The translations under genes were made by a program, and so were the position numbers. This document shows positions 13,344 through 58,230 of a DNA stretch of 64,000 nucleotides, in pieces. Source of the DNA: Norana najaformis (taxonomy: Eukaryota > Annelida > Clitellata > Crassiclitellata > Hormogastridae); contig OZ029915.1 in the NCBI GenBank assembly GCA_964023275.1, positions 38,009,073-38,073,072 on the forward strand. Reading direction: 5' to 3'. Below the pieces are notes generated by a model that had not been told where the DNA came from, did not search any database, and saw nothing but the letters and a program-made list of their open reading frames with translations. The number at the start of each line of letters is the position of its first letter. The first letter of the stretch is position 1.

Positions 13344-14639
13344 TCAGGCGCTGATATAGCCTCGTCCGCTCTCGTGTCTGTAGAAATTGTTAAAATTTGC
13401 GACAACGACTGGCACCGGAAGTGCTATGGTCAGGACACCGGCAATGACGCAGAACGTGCCGACGAGTTTGCCCCAGACTCCCACAGGAACGATGTCCCCG
13501 TACCCGACAGTAGTCATGGTCACAATGGCCCACCAGAATGAGTCTGGGATTGAAGTCATTTTCGACCCGGTCTGGCCAGCCTCGGCGTAGTAGGCGGCGG
13601 AGCTGAAGATGATCATGGCAATGATGAGGAAGAAGAAGAACATGCCGAGTTCCCTGAGGCTTGTCTTGATCGTCAGACCAAGGATCCGAAGTCCCTGCGA
13701 ATGTTTCGAGAGCTTGAAGATTCGAAAGACGCGAAGAACGCGGATGAAGATGAACGATCCGCTTTTCTTCGCCTTCTCGCAGTTGCCCTCCGTCTGCTGG
13801 ATCGCCAGAATGATGAAGAACGGCAGGATGGCCAGCAGATCGAAGATATTCATGATGTTCTTGGCAAAGACCGGTTTCGACGGACAGGCAATCAGACGCA
13901 GGGTGAACTCAACGGTGAACCAGGCAACGCAGATCGACTCAGTGATGAAGAACGGATCCAGGTAGTTTGGGCGGAAGAAGTACGTCTTGCCTTGGTCGGT
14001 CGTCGTGTTCAGGCAGATGTCTCGCTCGAAGGCAGGCAGAGTCTCCAGACAGAAGTTGATTATCGAGACGATGATACAGGCAACGGATGCAATTGCAAAG
14101 ACCTTCGCTGATACGGAACTGTCCGGTTCTTCACAGAACAGCCACAGTGATCGCTGCCATATCGTCTTCGGCAACTGTCGCCTCTTCTCAACCACGAACC
14201 CTTCCTTCTCTTTGTACTCGCGAATCGTGTTTTCGCCCAGCTGGTAGAACTCCAGTTCTTCGAGAAACACGTCTTCCGGAACTTCGAGCGGCCTGCGCAG
14301 TCTTCCGCCACTCTGGTAGAAGTAGAGAATGGCCTGAAAGGACGGACGGTGGCGATCGAGGAAGAACTCGTTGCGACGACTGTCCCAGAACTGGCTTCGC
14401 TTTATCGGGTCTCCAAGAAGAGTCCCCGGAAACCGGTTCAGGGTTCGAAGCTGGGTTTCGAACCGCAGTCCGCTGATGTTGAGAATAACGCGTCGACACC
14501 CGATTCTCCGGCAGTCATGCGTCTCGCCTGGGTCGAGTTCGATGTCAGCAAATTCCAGCAAGGTCTGCGGACCCTGGGAATCGCTGGCATGAATGACTGC
14601 GAGATTATCCTCCGTTTCGTATTTACTGAAAAAGGACAC
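13344..14639 (-). CDS. Shaker-type (Kv1-like) voltage-gated potassium channel, intronless
   Basis: A 431-residue alpha subunit of a tetrameric plasma-membrane voltage-gated K+ channel. Domains in order: T1 tetramerisation domain (about 48-148, starting RVILNISGLRFETQL), S1 (178-199), S2 (230-251), S3 (261-282), S4 (294-312), S5 (331-352), pore with selectivity filter TVGYGD (377-382), and S6 with the PVP hinge (408-410). An N-glycosylation sequon (N211-T-T) lies in the S1-S2 loop. The S4 charges are R300, R303, R306, K309 and K312. The position aligning with Shaker R362 (the first gating charge) is I297. The protein ends only about 14 residues after S6, with no PDZ-binding tail, shorter than typical Kv1 proteins (about 500 or more residues). 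No donor site is evident before the stop. The ORF is uninterrupted, consistent with an intronless Kv1 gene. Confidence 0.95.
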   Translation of the reverse strand: MSFFSKYETEDNLAVIHASDSQGPQTLLEFADIELDPGETHDCRRIGCRRVILNISGLRFETQLRTLNRFPGTLLGDPIKRSQFWDSRRNEFFLDRHRPSFQAILYFYQSGGRLRRPLEVPEDVFLEELEFYQLGENTIREYKEKEGFVVEKRRQLPKTIWQRSLWLFCEEPDSSVSAKVFAIASVACIIVSIINFCLETLPAFERDICLNTTTDQGKTYFFRPNYLDPFFITESICVAWFTVEFTLRLIACPSKPVFAKNIMNIFDLLAILPFFIILAIQQTEGNCEKAKKSGSFIFIRVLRVFRIFKLSKHSQGLRILGLTIKTSLRELGMFFFFLIIAMIIFSSAAYYAEAGQTGSKMTSIPDSFWWAIVTMTTVGYGDIVPVGVWGKLVGTFCVIAGVLTIALPVPVVVANFNNFYRHESGRGYISA

Positions 14640-27000: not shown

Positions 27001-30000
27001 AGAGATGATCCTGCATTCTTAGTCTTGGTGGCATTTTGGTTGGTAGGTAAGTGGTTTCAGTAATGGCAACAGTCTTACAACTACTTGTATGTATATATGT
27101 ATATTATTAATTAATAACTAATGTCATGCCAATGTCTGATGCACAAGGCATCAACCGATGGTGCACCAAAACCAACCCACAGTCAGGTCAACATCCAGAA
27201 GATCCTTGTAAAAGACAGAGAGGCAACCTATGATGGATAAGCAAGTTTAAAAAGGTAAGTCTTAAGTTAAGAACGAAATGACACAAGATACTGAGCAGAA
27301 TGAACAGACACAAGGAGAGAGTTCAAAACCTGGGCTCAGAAACCGAAGAAGCCCATTCACCAAGAACAGTTCTTGTCTTAGATATTACCAGAGAAATGAA
27401 AAAATCACAGTACTGACAGAAATAGGTTTACCATGGTGCTATCATAAAGATAGTTCATTAGCGCTCAACTGCAGTCCACTGTTGTGCATTTCAAATTAGC
27501 ATCTTATTTTCAGTACATCATAACTTTCTGTTTTCATAACAACATATTCAACATACATAATGTAATAATAACACTGGCCAACACACAATTTGTTGCCTCA
27601 AATGTTAGAACTGTTTCTGGGTATATTTGACCTGCTGATTCCAGAAAAGGCACCAGTTTTCTCCCAGCAGGTCTAGTTTTCGAGATATAGAACATTATGC
27701 CATATACCAGTCCTTGCCTCTGCTCGCCCATAAGACATAAGGCTATAGCTATAATTATGTAGTGCTCAATTTATTATGTGATACACTAAATAAACATAAT
27801 AATACAAATATTTAAAAGAAAATGGTAGTACCTGAAACTGTACTTATATGATACCAAACAGAACAAGTTTGTTATAAAAATTTCAAGTCATTCGACACCG
27901 AAGAAGCTCCTTTTGTACGATTTCTGAGTGTGGCATCTGCCGGAACAATCGCGCATAATATTCCAGCAATAGTCTGCCATCATGTGTGCATCCCATCTTC
28001 CTTGATATCGATTTTCCATTGTTTTGATGTCTTGGTGAAATCTTTCACCTTGCTCTTCGCTGAAGTCACCAAGATTCTCTGGAAAGCGATCTAAGTGACT
28101 GTGGAGATAATGGACTTTAATGCTCATGTTGCAGCCAAGCTTGTTGAAATGAAGAAGCATATCCTCTACTAGTTGTGCATAATTGTCTGCCTTCTTGTTG
28201 CCAAGAAAATTTTTAGTTACAAGAACAAAGGAAGACCAGGCACAAGATTCGATTTCATTCATTGATGGTATGAAAAGTGGGTCATTCATAAGTTGCCTGA
28301 TCTGTGGACCATCGAAGATTCCAGCCTTCAATTTTTCCATTGTAATTCCTGGTAACTTGTGTACTATGTATTCGAAGCATGAACCTTCTTTATTCAAAGC
28401 CCTGACAAATTGTTTCATCAGGCCTAGCTTTATATGTAGTGGTGGCAGTATGATCCTATCTCGTGCCACCAAAGATTCCTTGATTACATTTTGAGCTCCA
28501 ACCACCATGTCTTTCCTCGAAGGCCAATCTTTTCTTGTCCAATGTTCATGCTTGGCTCTACTGTCCCAAAGACACAAAAAGCAGGGATACTTTGTGTAGC
28601 CACTTTGTTGACCAAGGAGGAAATTTACCATCTTCAAGTCTACACAAATTACCCATTGATGTTCTTTGTATTTTATCTTTTCCAGTACTAAAGAGATGGC
28701 ATTGTACTCTTCTTTCATCCTGGTGGAGTGACCGATTGGAATAGAACCAAATTTGTTGCCGTTATTTAAAAGCACACATTTCAGACTACGTTTTGAACTG
28801 TCGATAAAAAGACGCCACTCATCTGGGCTGTAATCCGACAGACCAATTTTCTTCAATAAGTTGCTGATGTCATTACAGAATACTAGGTTGTTGTCTTCGG
28901 TAAAGAATGGCAGCAAATCCTTTTCTCTGTTTCTATAAATTGTAATTTTCGTTCCAGGCTGAAGTGCATTCTTTTCCTTTAGTCTGGACGCAAGCAATTC
29001 AGAGGACTCTTTGGAAAGATTTAAGTCCCTGATCAGATCACTCAACTCTTTTTGGTCAAAACGTTCACTGTGTGAAGTTGATTGGAAATCACTGTCACTG
29101 CCCCCACTTTCTTCACTTTCGTCATCTTGTCCGATATTGGACATGCAAGTCTCATCGTCTGAGAGCTGAGGTAGTTCGCGAAAAGGTGGAACTGGTACAA
29201 TATCCGAATGCTGAACAGGTCTCCTGGCTGAAGGTATATCAGGGTAAGACAACTTGTGACGATTATTTCGATTGATGCCTATGATATTAACCATACAAAA
29301 GTAACAGTCGTCGAAGTGGTTTATCTGTTCCCTCCAAACCATCGGTACACCAAATTTCAGGCAGCTTCTCTTTCCAATTGTCCAGTGGCGCAATTGTTCA
29401 ATACAAGTTTTGCATACTGTATGAGGAGCCCATTGCTTATCTTGATCTCCAAGTTTGACACCAAAATAACCTACATATGCTCTTTTTACAAACTCAGAAA
29501 TCGGTTTCCTGTTTGCTTTCAGTGTGTATTCCCCACAAATGTAGCAGAATATGTCTGGATGGTTAATGCAGCTCCGTCTGGAAGTAGCCATAACCTTAAG
29601 GATGTTCGCATCTGAGGAATTAAATGACTAACCTAAAAAATAGTAAGAACATGTAGTTATTTAATGCTCACATTCACAGATTGTTCTTGCGACCAACTCT
29701 TAATATGCCCTAAGACGACTGCGGCTGCTCTAGCTTTCAGGAGGCGGTTTATATAGGCTATAAATGCTGACTTCAGCATAATCTATTTACATAGTTCGAA
29801 ACCATGAAACGCTGTATAAGCACAAATAAATTCTAAATGAGGCCATGAATTTAGTGCTGAGTAAGCTGTAGGCTACGGAATAGTTATTTCGTTGAATCAG
29901 CAATATCTCAGCACGCGGCAAGATATGCTGATTTTACATTATAAGGATGTAGGCATTATATGAATCAGCAGGAATTATAATTAGCCATAAATAAAGCTTA

Positions 30001-33000
30001 TTATGACATTTTAGTTTTGCCAAAGACATCGTTTAAAGAGTGGACTGGGTTTTCTTTACAAAATCGACGATATCTGAGAAACTAGACCTGATGCACTCAA
30101 TCCAATGACATTTTCTGAATCAGCGCCCAAAATTACCCCAAGAACAGGTCTAAAACCGAAGGCAACAAGAAAAAAAAATTTTTCTGTTGGCCAGTGTAAT
30201 CTAGTATCTATCTTCATCATTTGTTACTAGTCTTATCGTGTCTTGTCTTTAACCGTATTTGATCTGAAGTTGAGCCGCACCTTGAACCATCCATCTCCTG
30301 ATGTTTCTGTCTTCAGTAGTCTGCTGTAATCGACTCATAGATAATCCTGTCTAAGACCTTATGTTCTCACTCCAGGATGTTTGTGGTCTTCCATGTGCTT
30401 GCAATCCAGATATTATACCCTGCATTATTTCTATCTCTAAACAGTCTCCATTTTTCCTCATAATATGACCAAAGTATGTCAACTTCCTTGACTTGATGTT
30501 ACTTAACAGTTGATGTTCCATGCTGGTTTGTTCCAGTACCCATTCATTGGTTTTCCTTGTCATCCAAGTAACCTTGATAACCAATTTCGAATTTCAAACG
30601 ACTGTACCAAGTCCTTAGCCTATATACCTAGACCATATTCGTGTGCTTGATTTTAGAGTTTAAAGTCTGTTTATGTGCTCAAGGATATTAAGAAATGAAA
30701 GACTAATATTGTTAATAAATTCCTTTTATGGAATTACTTCCATGTGTTAAATTATGTTTATACTCTAATGTTTTTTTTGTAGTATCATCTATCGGTTTTG
30801 CCGTTGTGCTCAAACTGCATTTTGTTGCTTTTCTGAAGTTTCTGTTGTGGGTTGTATTTGTTGATTACATTGGTGTTGGACTGCTGATAGCCTCTGCTCT
30901 CTGGTAAGTTTTTTGAGAATCTGGTATGGTAAATTATGCATTATGGGTGAAATTTTTCCTAAGAAACATTTTTTTACAAGCAGAAGATTAAAACAGAGAA
31001 TACAAAGCATTTAACTGAATTTATTAAAAATCACTTCCACTTATAAAACACAATTTTGAATTAAACACAGTTTTTCAGATCTAACAGCCTACATTCCAAA
31101 AGGCAATTCATAATTTTAGTAACCTTTTCATGTCCAATAATGCCTGTGGCATATACACAGCTACATAAACATGGACTGAAATTTTGGTCGCAAAATACCG
31201 TTTCAGTTTAACGTGGCCCTCGCCATAACGCTATGCTTGACATGGGTCCCAAATCCTGTGTTATAGCGAGGGGCAGTGTATCCATTGATGCAAGAGAAAG
31301 ATCTTGACTGCAGACTGATGTTTAAATAGCATCTGATCAGTTTCAGATGTGATCAGAAAAACATAGTATAGGCAGTGTGTCTTATCTGAGTATGTTTTCT
31401 TATTTTGGTAGTTTACCATGTGAATGTGCCTTTACTTGTTTGTCCTGTTTAGGTGGATTGCCAACCGGTATCTGATTATCCAGCCTCCGAGAGGGCAGGA
31501 TGTTGAATGGGGATACTGTTTTGACATTCATCTGAATGCTTTCTTTCCACTTCTGATGATACTTCATCTCTTCCAACTGCCGTTCCTCAATGGTATGTTT
31601 TATGATTGTGTGACGCTCTCTAATTTGGAGCTGCATCCATGACAGGGAGATTGTGTAATGTATAAGATATGCTGTCTAACAGTTCACATCAACATAAGCC
31701 CTGCAAATACAGCTGTAACTGATCATTATTTATTTCTTTTTCCTCTCATAACCTTTTGTTTATTTTTTCTCTACACAACTGGCCACAAAGCGACACAGGT
31801 TTACCTGTGCTTCCTGTTATCTGTCTCAATCTCATCATTCATTCATATCATTTCTCAAATTCAGTAATGTAACACAATCTCCATTTGTCAGTTTCTCTGG
31901 ATTCTTCTGATCTGTTGCGATGTGTCCGGAGGTGTTTCGCTTAATTTAAACTGAAGTTTGAAAGCATTATGTCTTGAATTCTCATTGCTGACACTGTGAA
32001 GATACTTTGTCTATGAAGATGATTGTTCTGAATTATGTGAATAAGGGAGTGTGTTCTGAGATTGGTACATTCAACTTCTTTGTCTTTTCATTACTAGCAG
32101 TATGTGATTATATGATTTGTTTAGAATAGTATTAGTTGATCTTTGTCACCAAGAATGTTTCACAAAATTGTGTGCTGCAATAATGCTTTATTACTTTTAT
32201 TATTTGTTGTGTGTGTTTAGCTTTCATACGAAATGACTCGTACCCGTATTTAGCAGGCTTTGTTGGCAACACTTTGTGGTTGGTTGCTGTGGGTTACTAC
32301 ATTTACATCACCTTTCTTGGCTACAGCTGTAAGTACTGACTATGTTTTCATATGTGGTACTAACTACATTTTTATATGTGGTTATGATTAATGAATTCCA
32401 GTGTCTTTAGCTTGCCTGACTATACAGCTAAATAGGATAATGTAATGTAATTCAGCCAACTGATTTGACTTTGTGATTTTAATTTGTAACAGCCGTATGC
32501 CTTGTCTGTTTTTATGCATTTACAAAAGTTATCAAAACAGGTTTCAAATGATTACTGTGCATTACTACATTTGTCATGTACAGTGATAGAGTAGAAGAAT
32601 GCTAGTATATATAGTTAGATTGTATATAAGTTAGTATAAGTTAGTATATAAGGGTTAGATTGCATTGTTTCCATTGGTAGTTTATTTTTGAAAAATAGCC
32701 ATTTCTAATCTAGCCCTGAAAATTTTCAGGAATTCTGTATGGCATGTGAAGACCTCATTTCAAACAAATTCTGCAAATAAGAGTTTCAACAAAGAGCAAA
32801 TATAAAAAAGTTTTACAAGGTGATAGATTATTGAAAAATAACCTATATACTGAAGAAATAATCAAGTACCATTTTCTGTATTTGTTTCAGCATTACCTTT
32901 CCTGAAGAAGACACAAGTTATGCTGTATCCATTAACATTTGTTTTTATCATCTACATCATCTCGGTGATTGCTGGATGGAACTTCAGCCGAGCACTGTGT

Positions 33001-55371: not shown

Positions 55372-56952
55372 ATGACATTGCTTCCTCACACAAATCTTAC
55401 GGTCTTTAATTTATATCGCCCTCTGTCCTCCTCCTCATATTCAAGTCCTCCATCGGTCTTTCTGAAAGAATTTACAACCCTTCTTTCCACTGCATCCACC
55501 ATACCTCATGAATTCCTGATTACAGATGACTTTAATAACTTATACATGTTGATAATCCCTCTGATACATTCGCTTCTGAAGTCCTCACCCAACTAACTTG
55601 GTTCAGCATGTCAATTTTCCTACCCACACTCACAATCACACACTTGATTTCATTATCACATCATCATTTTCCAGTTTATCACATAAAATATCTTTTTCTT
55701 TCGACACGCCTTCTGATCATTATCCCATTTTTACACGCCTTAACACTCAACCTAATCCACGCTCTGATCCTGTCTTTCATTCTTTTCGTCGCATTAGTTC
55801 AATAAATATTGAAGCCTTCATACAAGATGTATAATGTTCAAACCTTGTTTTAAATTTATCTGCCTCCCTTTATGAACTTCTGTCTTGGTACAACAGCACT
55901 CTTTCCATGATTCTCGACAAACATGCACCTATTATTACTAAATCCAATTTTCACTCTACAATTCCCTGGTACAATTCCTATCTTCAAGCCTTCAAATCTT
56001 TCTGGCGACACCTAGAGCGTGCTTACAAGCGCACCCGTGATCATCAACTTCTGTCTGCCCATAAATCTGCTACAAATAAATACCATCATCTTCTAGCTAC
56101 AGCTAAAAAGACACTTTACTCATCACTAGGCCGCTCCCGATCCTCTAGCCCTCGCCTTTTCTGGAAAACCAATAATCAACTCCTCCATCGGAACTGCCCC
56201 AGTCCGCTTCCAAATTCTCTTCCATCCTCTCCGGTATCCAACTCCATTTGTTCCTTCTTTTCGGACAAAATAGTACCATCGGTTTTTCTTTTCAATCTCT
56301 CTTTTCCATAACCTCCAACAATCCAGCTATTGATGCCTCCTCTTCCATTTATGACCGCCTACATTCCCTACCTCGATCCTCACTATCTGCTTTTCAACCA
56401 ACACCAGAAACCGAAATATTAAATCTGCTAAAACCTCTTTCAAACAGACAATGCGAACTTGTATATACCTAACTCCTTACTGAAAGACTGCGCATCTGAC
56501 CTAGTTCCAATCATTTCCAAAATAGTCAACCTCTTCTTGTTACTGGTAATTTTCCCATTCGTTTCAAATACTCCTCTGTTATCCCTCTTCTCAAGAAACC
56601 ATCACTTGACAAAGAAATCTTTTCAAACTACCGGCTTATTTCGAACCTGCTTTCAACTCCAAATTAACTGAAAGGATTGTCCTTTCCAGGATCAGTGACT
56701 ATCTAGTTACAACTTCACTCCTAAATCCTGCCAGTCTGGTTTTGTTAAACGCCACTCGACTGAAACCCTACTCACTTCTCTCTACAAAATGTTTTTTCTG
56801 CCATCTCTCACCAACAAGTCTCTTGCTTCTGTCTCCTTGATATTTCAGCAGCCTTTGACATCATCGACAACAAAATCTTACTCATAAGACTTTCATCCTG
56901 GTTCGGTTATACTGACACTGCTTTCCTCTGGATACAATCGTATCTCTCCACC

Positions 56953-56989
<37 letters not shown>

Positions 56990-58230
56990 AAAATATTGGA
57001 AACCTCATCCCAGTCATGCCCTTTCACAGGGCTCTGTTCTTGGACATCTTCTGTTTATCCTCTACACTACCCCACTCAGGTCACTCATAAAAGCAAGCAA
57101 TGTCGATCATCACTTCAATGCTGATGACACTTAACTGTTCATCTCTTTCTCTGCGAACTGTTTCAACTACTTCATAGATCTTCTCTTCGTACGGTTACAC
57201 AGATCTCCTTCTTGATGACATCTAATCTCCTGTGCTTGAACTCATCCAAAACCGAATTCATACTTAAAGGTATATGCGACCATTCTTAAAAATTTCAATT
57301 TCCTCTATCTCTCTAAGCCTGGAATCTGCCTCAGCACACACCTTTTACAATAACTCTTCTGTCCGCAACTTAGGTGTGATCTTCGACCAAATCCTAAGTT
57401 TCTCTGATCGGATTACCCATCTCTCCCGCTCTTGCTTCATGCAATTCGTGACTTTGGCGGAATCGTCCTATGCTTGACTTTAAAACTGCATCAACCATCG
57501 CCACATCCATAGTCCATGCTAAATTTCACTATTGCAACTCACTTTTCCTGGAACATAGGCTCCACCCGAATAAGCAGCCTTCAAGTCATTCAGATTGCTC
57601 TTGCTCGTGCTGTCACCAAAACTCCCTAAAACACCAGCACATCACTCCTGTTTTTAAATCAATTCACTGGCTTAAAATACCTGCACGAATCGAGTACAAA
57701 GTCCTATCAATAGCTCAAACATATTCCAATCCTCCCACCTCTCCTATCTTCGGAAGTTATTTACAATCCAAACACTCCGCTCAACATGTTCCTCTTCTGC
57801 CCTAACACTTCTCCGCCCTCCCGTCACCTCGTCCTTAAAATTTGGTAATCGCTTCGTAGCCATAGCTGCCCCACCAATCTGGAGTAATCTCCCCAGAACT
57901 GTGACAGTAATCTGACCCATCATACAAATTCATCTATGCTCCCCCTTGCAATTTCTGCATTGGCCTTTCACTCAAAACTGAAAACATTCCTCTTTCACAG
58001 ATCCAATCCTGACTCTCCTTTCCCCTATCTCTCTTTCCGCTCAAATCCCAACATCATCCACCGTAGCTGTTACCCCATCTCTCTCTCTCTCTCTCTCTGC
58101 CTGACTTTTCGATCTTGACCTGGAACCGAATCCTTTTGCCTATCGATTTTGTTTTGACTGAGTGCTTGGTCCCCGTGACATGGCTTTCGTTGGGCACTGT
58201 AGAAATCTCGGGATTACGATTACGATTATG
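55372..58230 (+). pseudogene. Family A LINE (CR1/L2-like), long copy, ORF2 broken
   Basis: A 5'-truncated non-LTR retrotransposon of about 2.86 kb. In order: endonuclease pieces (FNLYRPLSSSS, ITDDFNN near 55530, then VNFPTHTHNHTLDFII and SDHYPIF near 55710-55730); a linker (SFWRHLERAYKRTRDHQLL near 56005); reverse transcriptase pieces (DISAAFDIID near 56845, FNADDT near 57115, followed at once by a stop); and the C-terminal region (HITPVFKSIHWLKIPARIEY near 57640, IAAPPIWSNLP near 57865, FHSKLKTFLFHR near 57968). These lie in different frames separated by stops, so it is inactive. A (CT)n tract at about 56957-56988 interrupts the RT. The 3' end is the conserved family A tail with GATTACGATTACGATTATG. 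Confidence 0.93.

Follow-up and report, generated by a model that had tools for sequence, protein, structure and literature searches.

Chapaev3 transposons are the best-described counterparts of the element that we analyse here. PMC4079192 gives Chapaev3 elements 5'-CAC...GTG-3' ends and a 3-bp TWA target site duplication (TSD) between A and T, and this A/T-flanked duplication is stated for all Chapaev3 elements examined. The same text names C(2)C, LH and H(4)H as Chapaev motifs, describes most Chapaev3 elements as single-exon, and reports 556 residues for the Garfield transposase of silkworm. PMC4411706 places Chapaev3, Transib and RAG1 in one superfamily, describes a RAG1-like N-terminal zinc domain ("Chapa") in Chapaev3, and gives 5-bp duplications as typical of Transibs. 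We consider it highly probable that the present locus holds a cut-and-paste DNA transposon, autonomous and belonging to the Chapaev3 sublineage of Chapaev within the CMC group, this assignment being a match to published trait descriptions rather than to Chapaev3 reference sequences.

Structure of the element and its genomic copies

The element spans positions 27572..30196 (2,625 bp) of the window, by which we mean the whole stretch of 64,000 nt that was analysed. It is bounded by exact 12-bp inverted ends, with CACTGGCCAACA at 27572..27583 on the + strand and its counterpart at 30185..30196 on the - strand, which reads TGTTGGCCAGTG on the + strand; these ends form a perfect inverted pair that has no further occurrence in the window. 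The left subterminal arm (27584..27705, +) is imperfectly inverted to approximately 30060-30184, and the right arm occupies 30060..30184 (-), the inner limits of both being approximate. A gapped alignment of the outermost 320 bases at either end, the 12-bp ends included, scores 85; 300 shuffles average 27 and reach at most 55. The perfect ends and imperfect arms described in an earlier note on this DNA are both present, as is the TAA that it placed on either flank (27569..27571, preceded by A, and 30197..30199, followed by T), giving the insertion context A-TAA-T. A literature search for the end sequence returned no relevant title among the matches listed.

Searching the genome for the exact 12-mer ends, as the earlier note had suggested, gives 1561 + 1295 = 2,856 occurrences, compared to 13 + 12 = 25 for the reversed control. 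Among the first 100 places listed, 74 make 37 inward-facing pairs, 36 of which were fetched as copies with ends identical to those of the window element; the remaining pair (L045, in a tandem array and with partial sequence) stands outside every count. These other copies share the boundaries of the window element, with 34 of the 36 measuring 2,600-2,632 bp and two being shorter (2,321 and 1,884 bp), and the 567-codon open reading frame (ORF) is retained in 15. Mean pairwise divergence is 0.86% (37 copies). Moreover, all 77 scored transposase matches in the genome lack stops at 99-100% identity, 76 of them spanning residues 1-566 and one residues 2-566, although these are a non-random sample because they are the best-scoring of 6,401 first-look candidates. 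We estimate that the genome holds hundreds to about 1000 similar copies with terminal inverted repeats (TIRs) and TSDs. A family of Chapaev3 type has thus recently burst to high copy number, with many copies keeping an open transposase frame.

The 3-bp duplication is perfect in 34 of the 36 fetched copies, L010 and L016 being without a matching TSD. The duplicated triplet is TAA or TTA in 22 of the 36 and another triplet in 12. At the 34 non-duplicate sites, exact A-TWA-T is seen 21 times (chance is 0.67% per site), with A at -1 in 31 cases and T at +1 in 32, so that the preference is strong but not absolute, whereas the silkworm element is described in PMC4079192 as always flanked by A and T. 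A longer palindromic target was considered and discarded, since beyond A-TWA-T there is merely a weak bias five bases off the duplication (0.24-0.28 bits). The window also contains, outside the element, a paralogous empty site for the L040 copy (56204..57166, - strand), with which the joined flanks of that copy align over 978 columns at 78%. A single TCA lies at the junction, and three bases were therefore duplicated on insertion.

The transposase

A single open frame of 567 codons plus stop lies at 27888..29591 on the - strand, antisense to unc-50. The uninterrupted frame, and the residues D264, D318, C337, C340, H494, H499 and SEEQGE at 511-516 to which the earlier note had drawn attention, are all found as it described them. 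Conservation was scored over rows consisting of related-family copies aligned to the transposase, and all of the following motifs are on the - strand. The candidate first catalytic Asp, D264 (WRLFIDSS; 28800..28802), is kept in 5/5 rows with a residue there, and the candidate second, D318 (VDLK; 28638..28640), is kept in 4/5, the exception being a frame-broken copy. The C(2)C motif C337-x2-C340 (28572..28583) is conserved in 7/7 and 8/8 rows, respectively, and the His of the LH motif L385-H386 (28434..28439) in 5/7. In the H(4)H motif H494-x4-H499 (28095..28112), H494 is present in 9/10 rows, H499 in 10/10 and H497 in 7/10. The segment SEEQGE (28044..28061), which contains the third acidic residue, has E513 in 8/10 rows, E512 in 5/10 and E516 in 10/10, the last figure arising by construction because the loci were picked with a pattern containing G-E-R-F-H-Q-D. 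Judged from the alignment, the third acidic residue is ambiguous and could be either E513 or E516. A single-sequence structure model has a pLDDT of 34.6, and the strand order around residues 258-316 carries no weight at such confidence.

The N-terminal zinc region C16xxC19 ... C60xxC63 ... H92 ... C96xxC99 (29295..29546, - strand) is a candidate Chapa domain, and its cysteines are conserved in all 4-6 related-family rows that cover them. No Pfam family matches the transposase above cut-off; for the N-terminal zinc region the zf-AD (E=0.0028) and DZR_2 (E=0.0042) matches are both below it, and an N-terminal fragment of RAG1 matches zf-AD similarly weakly (E=0.002). Matches to 'ZapG-like', FYVE, RING and DZR_2 were discounted as being below cut-off.

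Comparison with Chapaev3 and other transposases

The element resembles Chapaev3 (Merrow, Garfield and Conan; Repbase Chapaev3), as PMC4079192 and PMC4411706 describe it, in its A-TWA-T target and 3-bp duplication, in the C(2)C, LH and H(4)H motifs, in having a single frame for 567 residues compared to 556 in Garfield, and in a Cys-rich N-terminus. It also has the 5'-CAC...GTG-3' termini, as do its copies, which were located through these ends. It differs from described Chapaev3 elements in its family-level sequence, its own 12-bp ends and its length, and we take it to be a further member of this already known kind. In the earlier note, a TAA duplication combined with a large zinc region at the N-terminus was thought to be a possible sign of a distinct lineage; we reject this proposal because both are published Chapaev3 traits (PMC4079192, PMC4411706), and the supposed novelty is answered by this match.

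The alternative that survives best is that the element belongs to a separate CMC/RAG1 (CMCT) superfamily that has converged on the ends, target and motif spacing of Chapaev3. The CMCT group has several lineages, with TSDs of 2-5 bp and mostly CA..TG ends (PMC12730594), and the trait-based nature of our assignment leaves room for such convergence. Nevertheless, we regard it as improbable given that the A-TWA-T target stated for all Chapaev3 elements examined in PMC4079192 is seen here, and that transposase length, single frame, motif set and Cys-rich N-terminus fit the published description as well. The remaining CMC groups are distinguished by their target sites. Chapaev sensu stricto has a 4-bp TSD and that of Mirage is TA; for these two and for EnSpm/CACTA, either the length of the TSD or the target is unlike that of our element, although all three have the CMC motif set (PMC12730594) and CAC ends also occur in Chapaev (PMC4079192) and EnSpm (PMC12730594).

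That the element is instead Transib/RAG1-like (TransibSU/ProtoRAG) seems to us scarcely credible. The best RAG1 profile match, weak at a probability of 0.3%, does align D318 and C337xxC340 with the catalytic D-x18-CxxC of RAG1, and this D-x18-C-x2-C spacing is common to both proteins. In addition, RAG1, Transib and TransibSU share with our transposase a C(2)C and an H(3-4)H motif, placed after the second Asp and before the Glu (PMC12730594). The 3-bp TSD, seen in the copies and at the empty site, is in conflict with the 5 bp of Transib and RAG1, no RAG1 chain in the PDB matches the transposase in phmmer or hmmsearch, and the ORF list contains no second ORF above 119 codons within the element. 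Nothing convincing was found for RAG1 by BLASTP, and the element also differs from RAG1 in lacking a RING match above cut-off. Smith-Waterman scores are equalled by 30/1000 shuffles for the N-terminus against RAG1 81-260 (in an unexpected register) and by 77/500 for the N-terminus against whole RAG1, and are reached by 41/300 for the core and 61/500 for the C-terminus. The hhalign comparison of the N-terminus with RAG1 is in register and scores 19.1 (probability 2.9%); the best shuffles score 19.8 and 24.3 (two sets, 60 shuffles each). Sequence and profile scores are therefore not clear of shuffles, and direct similarity to RAG1 is unconvincing. The earlier claim of a CMC/RAG1-group transposon is supported by the ends, TSD, target, motif set and empty site. 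We regard a PDB profile match to 2g1e (E 1.6) as a chance hit. Finally, the length and integrity of the ORF might suggest a gene of the host, or a transposase that has been domesticated, and not part of a mobile element; this is contradicted by the many copies with TIRs and TSDs together with the empty site, and can be practically discounted.

Our preferred reading, that of a Chapaev3 transposon, suggests a mechanism in which the 567-residue transposase would bind the 12-bp ends and the subterminal arms, probably through the zinc region at its N-terminus together with adjacent segments. A putative DDE active site (D264, D318 and E513 or E516), in a zinc-containing RNase H-like core for which C337/C340 and H494/H499 are the predicted zinc ligands, would excise the element. 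Its insertion at an A-TWA-T target would involve joining to the two strands at points three bases apart, which would produce the 3-bp duplication. Catalysis, zinc binding, N-terminal DNA binding and transposon activity are all inferred.

Related families and genomic setting

Two abundant relatives in the same genome have 48.4% and 48.5% amino acid identity to the transposase, and both retain D, D, C(2)C and H(4)H; several decayed relatives also carry the motifs. The ends of the abundant relatives are CACTGG; ten right ends were located, seven of them followed by TTAT or TAAT. Among relative copies with both ends visible, the 3-bp flanks match in L084 and L087 and mismatch in L074, L080 and L083. 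Putative relatives at 27 loci in viral and prokaryote contig collections were judged to be chance, no tblastn match being better than E 0.4 when the loci were searched together.

Being young and rich in open copies, the family offers a practical subject for studying this branch because PMC4411706 groups Chapaev3 with Transib and RAG1 and assigns to it the RAG1-like Chapa domain. We tentatively suggest, as a possibility that we hold to be rather unlikely in its entirety, that this is a native and currently active Chapaev3 transposon coexisting with two sister families, and a usable source for the study of a Chapa-domain transposase. If so, biochemical and structural work could test whether the N-terminal zinc region of RAG1 goes back to a transposon domain that served in DNA binding or regulation.

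The element lies between + strand exons of UNC-50, of which the closest on either side ends at about 27045 and starts at about 30767, respectively; they were placed with a query that we take to represent the UNC-50 sequence. The location claimed earlier, intron 3 of unc-50, thus holds as to its position between UNC-50 exons, with the intron number being 2 or 3 according to where a short stretch of UNC-50 falls. The left flank bears a dispersed repeat, 27132-27328 matching the flank of the L030 copy at 79%.

Identity of the element and its transposase

By match to published trait descriptions, the element at 27572-30196 of the window is a known kind of DNA transposon, a member of a young and numerous Chapaev3-type family. 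The element is real as the earlier note described it, in that its 12-bp ends are exact inverted copies, TAA is present on either side in the context A-TAA-T, and the residues named there are all present in a single 567-codon ORF on the minus strand. Inverted similarity extends past these 12 bp, the gapped alignment score being 85 (12-bp ends included) compared with at most 55 in 300 shuffles. Plus-strand UNC-50 exons flank the element, with the nearest matches ending at about 27045 and starting at about 30767, and the transposase is therefore antisense to the UNC-50 gene. Elsewhere in the window, a 431-codon open frame on the minus strand (13344-14639) resembles, by eye, a Shaker-type voltage-gated potassium channel.

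Chapaev elements are described with CAC...GTG termini and the motifs C(2)C, LH, and H(4)H; the description of Chapaev3 adds a TWA duplication (W being A or T) between A and T and genes that are mostly single-exon, and the silkworm member Garfield encodes 556 residues in two exons (PMC4079192). The Chapa domain of Chapaev3 is a complex zinc finger that also occurs at the RAG1 N-terminus (PMC4411706), and Chapaev3 is a sublineage of Chapaev, placed with RAG1 in the CMCT clade, with C(2)C and H(3-4)H in common (PMC12730594). It had been suggested that the element might represent a distinct lineage, but every feature singled out in its favor already appears in the Chapaev3, Chapaev, or CMCT traits listed there (PMC4079192, PMC4411706, PMC12730594).

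Conservation was scored on 20 aligned rows of whole proteins and stop-free pieces, several of them from the same family so that the counts are not independent, with denominators giving the rows that have a residue at the position. Asp-264 is kept in 5/5 rows and Asp-318 in 4/5, the exception being a frame-broken copy. The corresponding counts are 7/7 for Cys-337, 8/8 for Cys-340, 5/7 for His-386, 9/10 for His-494, 7/10 for His-497, and 10/10 for His-499. Glu-513 is kept in 8/10 rows and Glu-512 in 5/10; the 10/10 for Glu-516 is uninformative because the search pattern contains this residue. On these alignments the third acidic residue is likely to be Glu-513 or Glu-516, and unlikely to be Glu-512.

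Comparisons with RAG1 and the predicted fold

BLASTP and phmmer gave no match to RAG1, and RAG1 was likewise absent from the matches when PDB sequences were searched with the whole protein, its N-terminus, or the 20-row profile. In four Smith-Waterman comparisons, the score against RAG1 was reached by 30/1000, 77/500, 41/300, and 61/500 shuffles. The N-terminal 135 residues (E 0.0028) and a RAG1 N-terminal fragment verified against PDB 21wb, 9jpu, and 6oem (E 0.002) both match Pfam zf-AD weakly, below the cut-off, over nearly the same stretch of the profile. In an hhalign alignment of the N-terminus, two CxxC pairs and a VxMxW segment fall in register with RAG1 at a score of 19.1 and a probability of 2.9%, whereas shuffle controls (60 each) reach 24.3 with the cysteines held in place and 19.8 without. 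The best core match, a weak one, aligns D318-x18-CxxC with an identical spacing in RAG1 (score 20.0, probability 0.3%). None of these comparisons is convincing alone, and the registers are suggestive rather than proof. A single-sequence structure model of the transposase has a mean pLDDT of 34.6; the motifs and the literature point to a putative RNase H fold.

Copies in the genome

The proposed boundaries recur in the 608 Mb (17 contigs) searched, the 12-mer end being found 1561 times forward and 1295 times in reverse, whereas its reversed control gives 13 and 12. Of the places listed, the first 100 include 74 that make up 37 inward-facing pairs, 36 of which were fetched as our copy sample; the 37th (2,584 bp, in a tandem array and partly covered by locus L045) enters no count. 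Should the paired fraction of 74% apply genome-wide, the genome would hold roughly 1000 two-ended copies, a figure extrapolated from the beginning of a single contig. Copy length is 2,600-2,632 bp in 34/36 fetched copies, the other two being shorter, and the 567-codon ORF is retained in 15/36. Mean pairwise divergence is 0.86% over 37 copies, including that in the window. A protein search of the genome gave 6,401 first-look candidates, and all 77 that were scored, which are the best-scoring rather than a random sample, are stop-free at 99-100% identity. Relative to the column majority, first and second codon positions each show 0.38% substitutions, third positions 0.47%, and sequence outside the ORF 0.52%. 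Selection has thus left little trace, as would fit a recent burst.

Two arrangements of copies were also observed. L045:1-10000 carries one element end four times in direct orientation at a spacing of about 2.3-2.4 kb, which looks like a tandem array that takes in flanking DNA also found beside L017. At L005:1501-1530, a copy adjoins 14 bp of another copy's end with TAA between them, as if it had inserted into, or been left beside, an earlier terminus.

Target sites

A 3-bp duplication like that in the window is perfect in 34/36 fetched copies (12 TAA, 10 TTA, and 12 other triplets); L010 and L016 have no matching 3-bp duplication. Target preference was evaluated on 34 sites, namely the fetched copies without L010, L016, and L022, plus the window copy; L022 was left out because its flanks are the same as those of L021. 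The duplication is preceded by A at 31/34 sites and followed by T at 32/34, and exact A-TWA-T occurs at 21/34, whereas flank composition predicts 0.67% per site. The joined flanks of L040 match the minus strand of the window (57166-56204) through the junction at 78% over 978 alignment columns. This empty site has a single TCA at the junction and L040 has TCA on each side, so that insertion duplicated three bases in this copy. Window 56204-57166 is a dispersed repeat of about 1 kb, 78% related to the L040 flanks. Shorter junction-spanning matches (73-80%) exist for the flanks of L021 and L022. These two loci lie 25 kb apart and have the same duplication and flanks that are 95-99% identical, which probably reflects segmental duplication rather than two insertions.

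Related families in the same genome

Relatives were sought with degenerate GERFHQD patterns, the codons of which were picked to miss most of the element's own family. The two patterns gave 1,094 and 331 genome matches, compared with 0 for reversed controls, and 10 and 7 places were fetched; one of the 7, L089, belongs to the element's own family in mutated form. Two abundant related families have ORFs of 562 (L073) and 557 (L087) residues, each intact in one or more of the fetched copies, with 48.4% and 48.5% identity, respectively, to the element's protein and 51.8% to one another. Several further related families, older and decayed, coexist in this genome. The termini of the L073 and L087 families are CACTGGTCAACA/CACTGGACAACA and CACTGGATCACA. 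Only one end was found for L073 and L081, and at L074, L080, and L083, where both ends are visible, the flanks do not match. TTAT or TAAT directly follows 7/10 right ends of related families found by pattern, and matching TTA duplications are present at L084 and L087, where both ends are visible.
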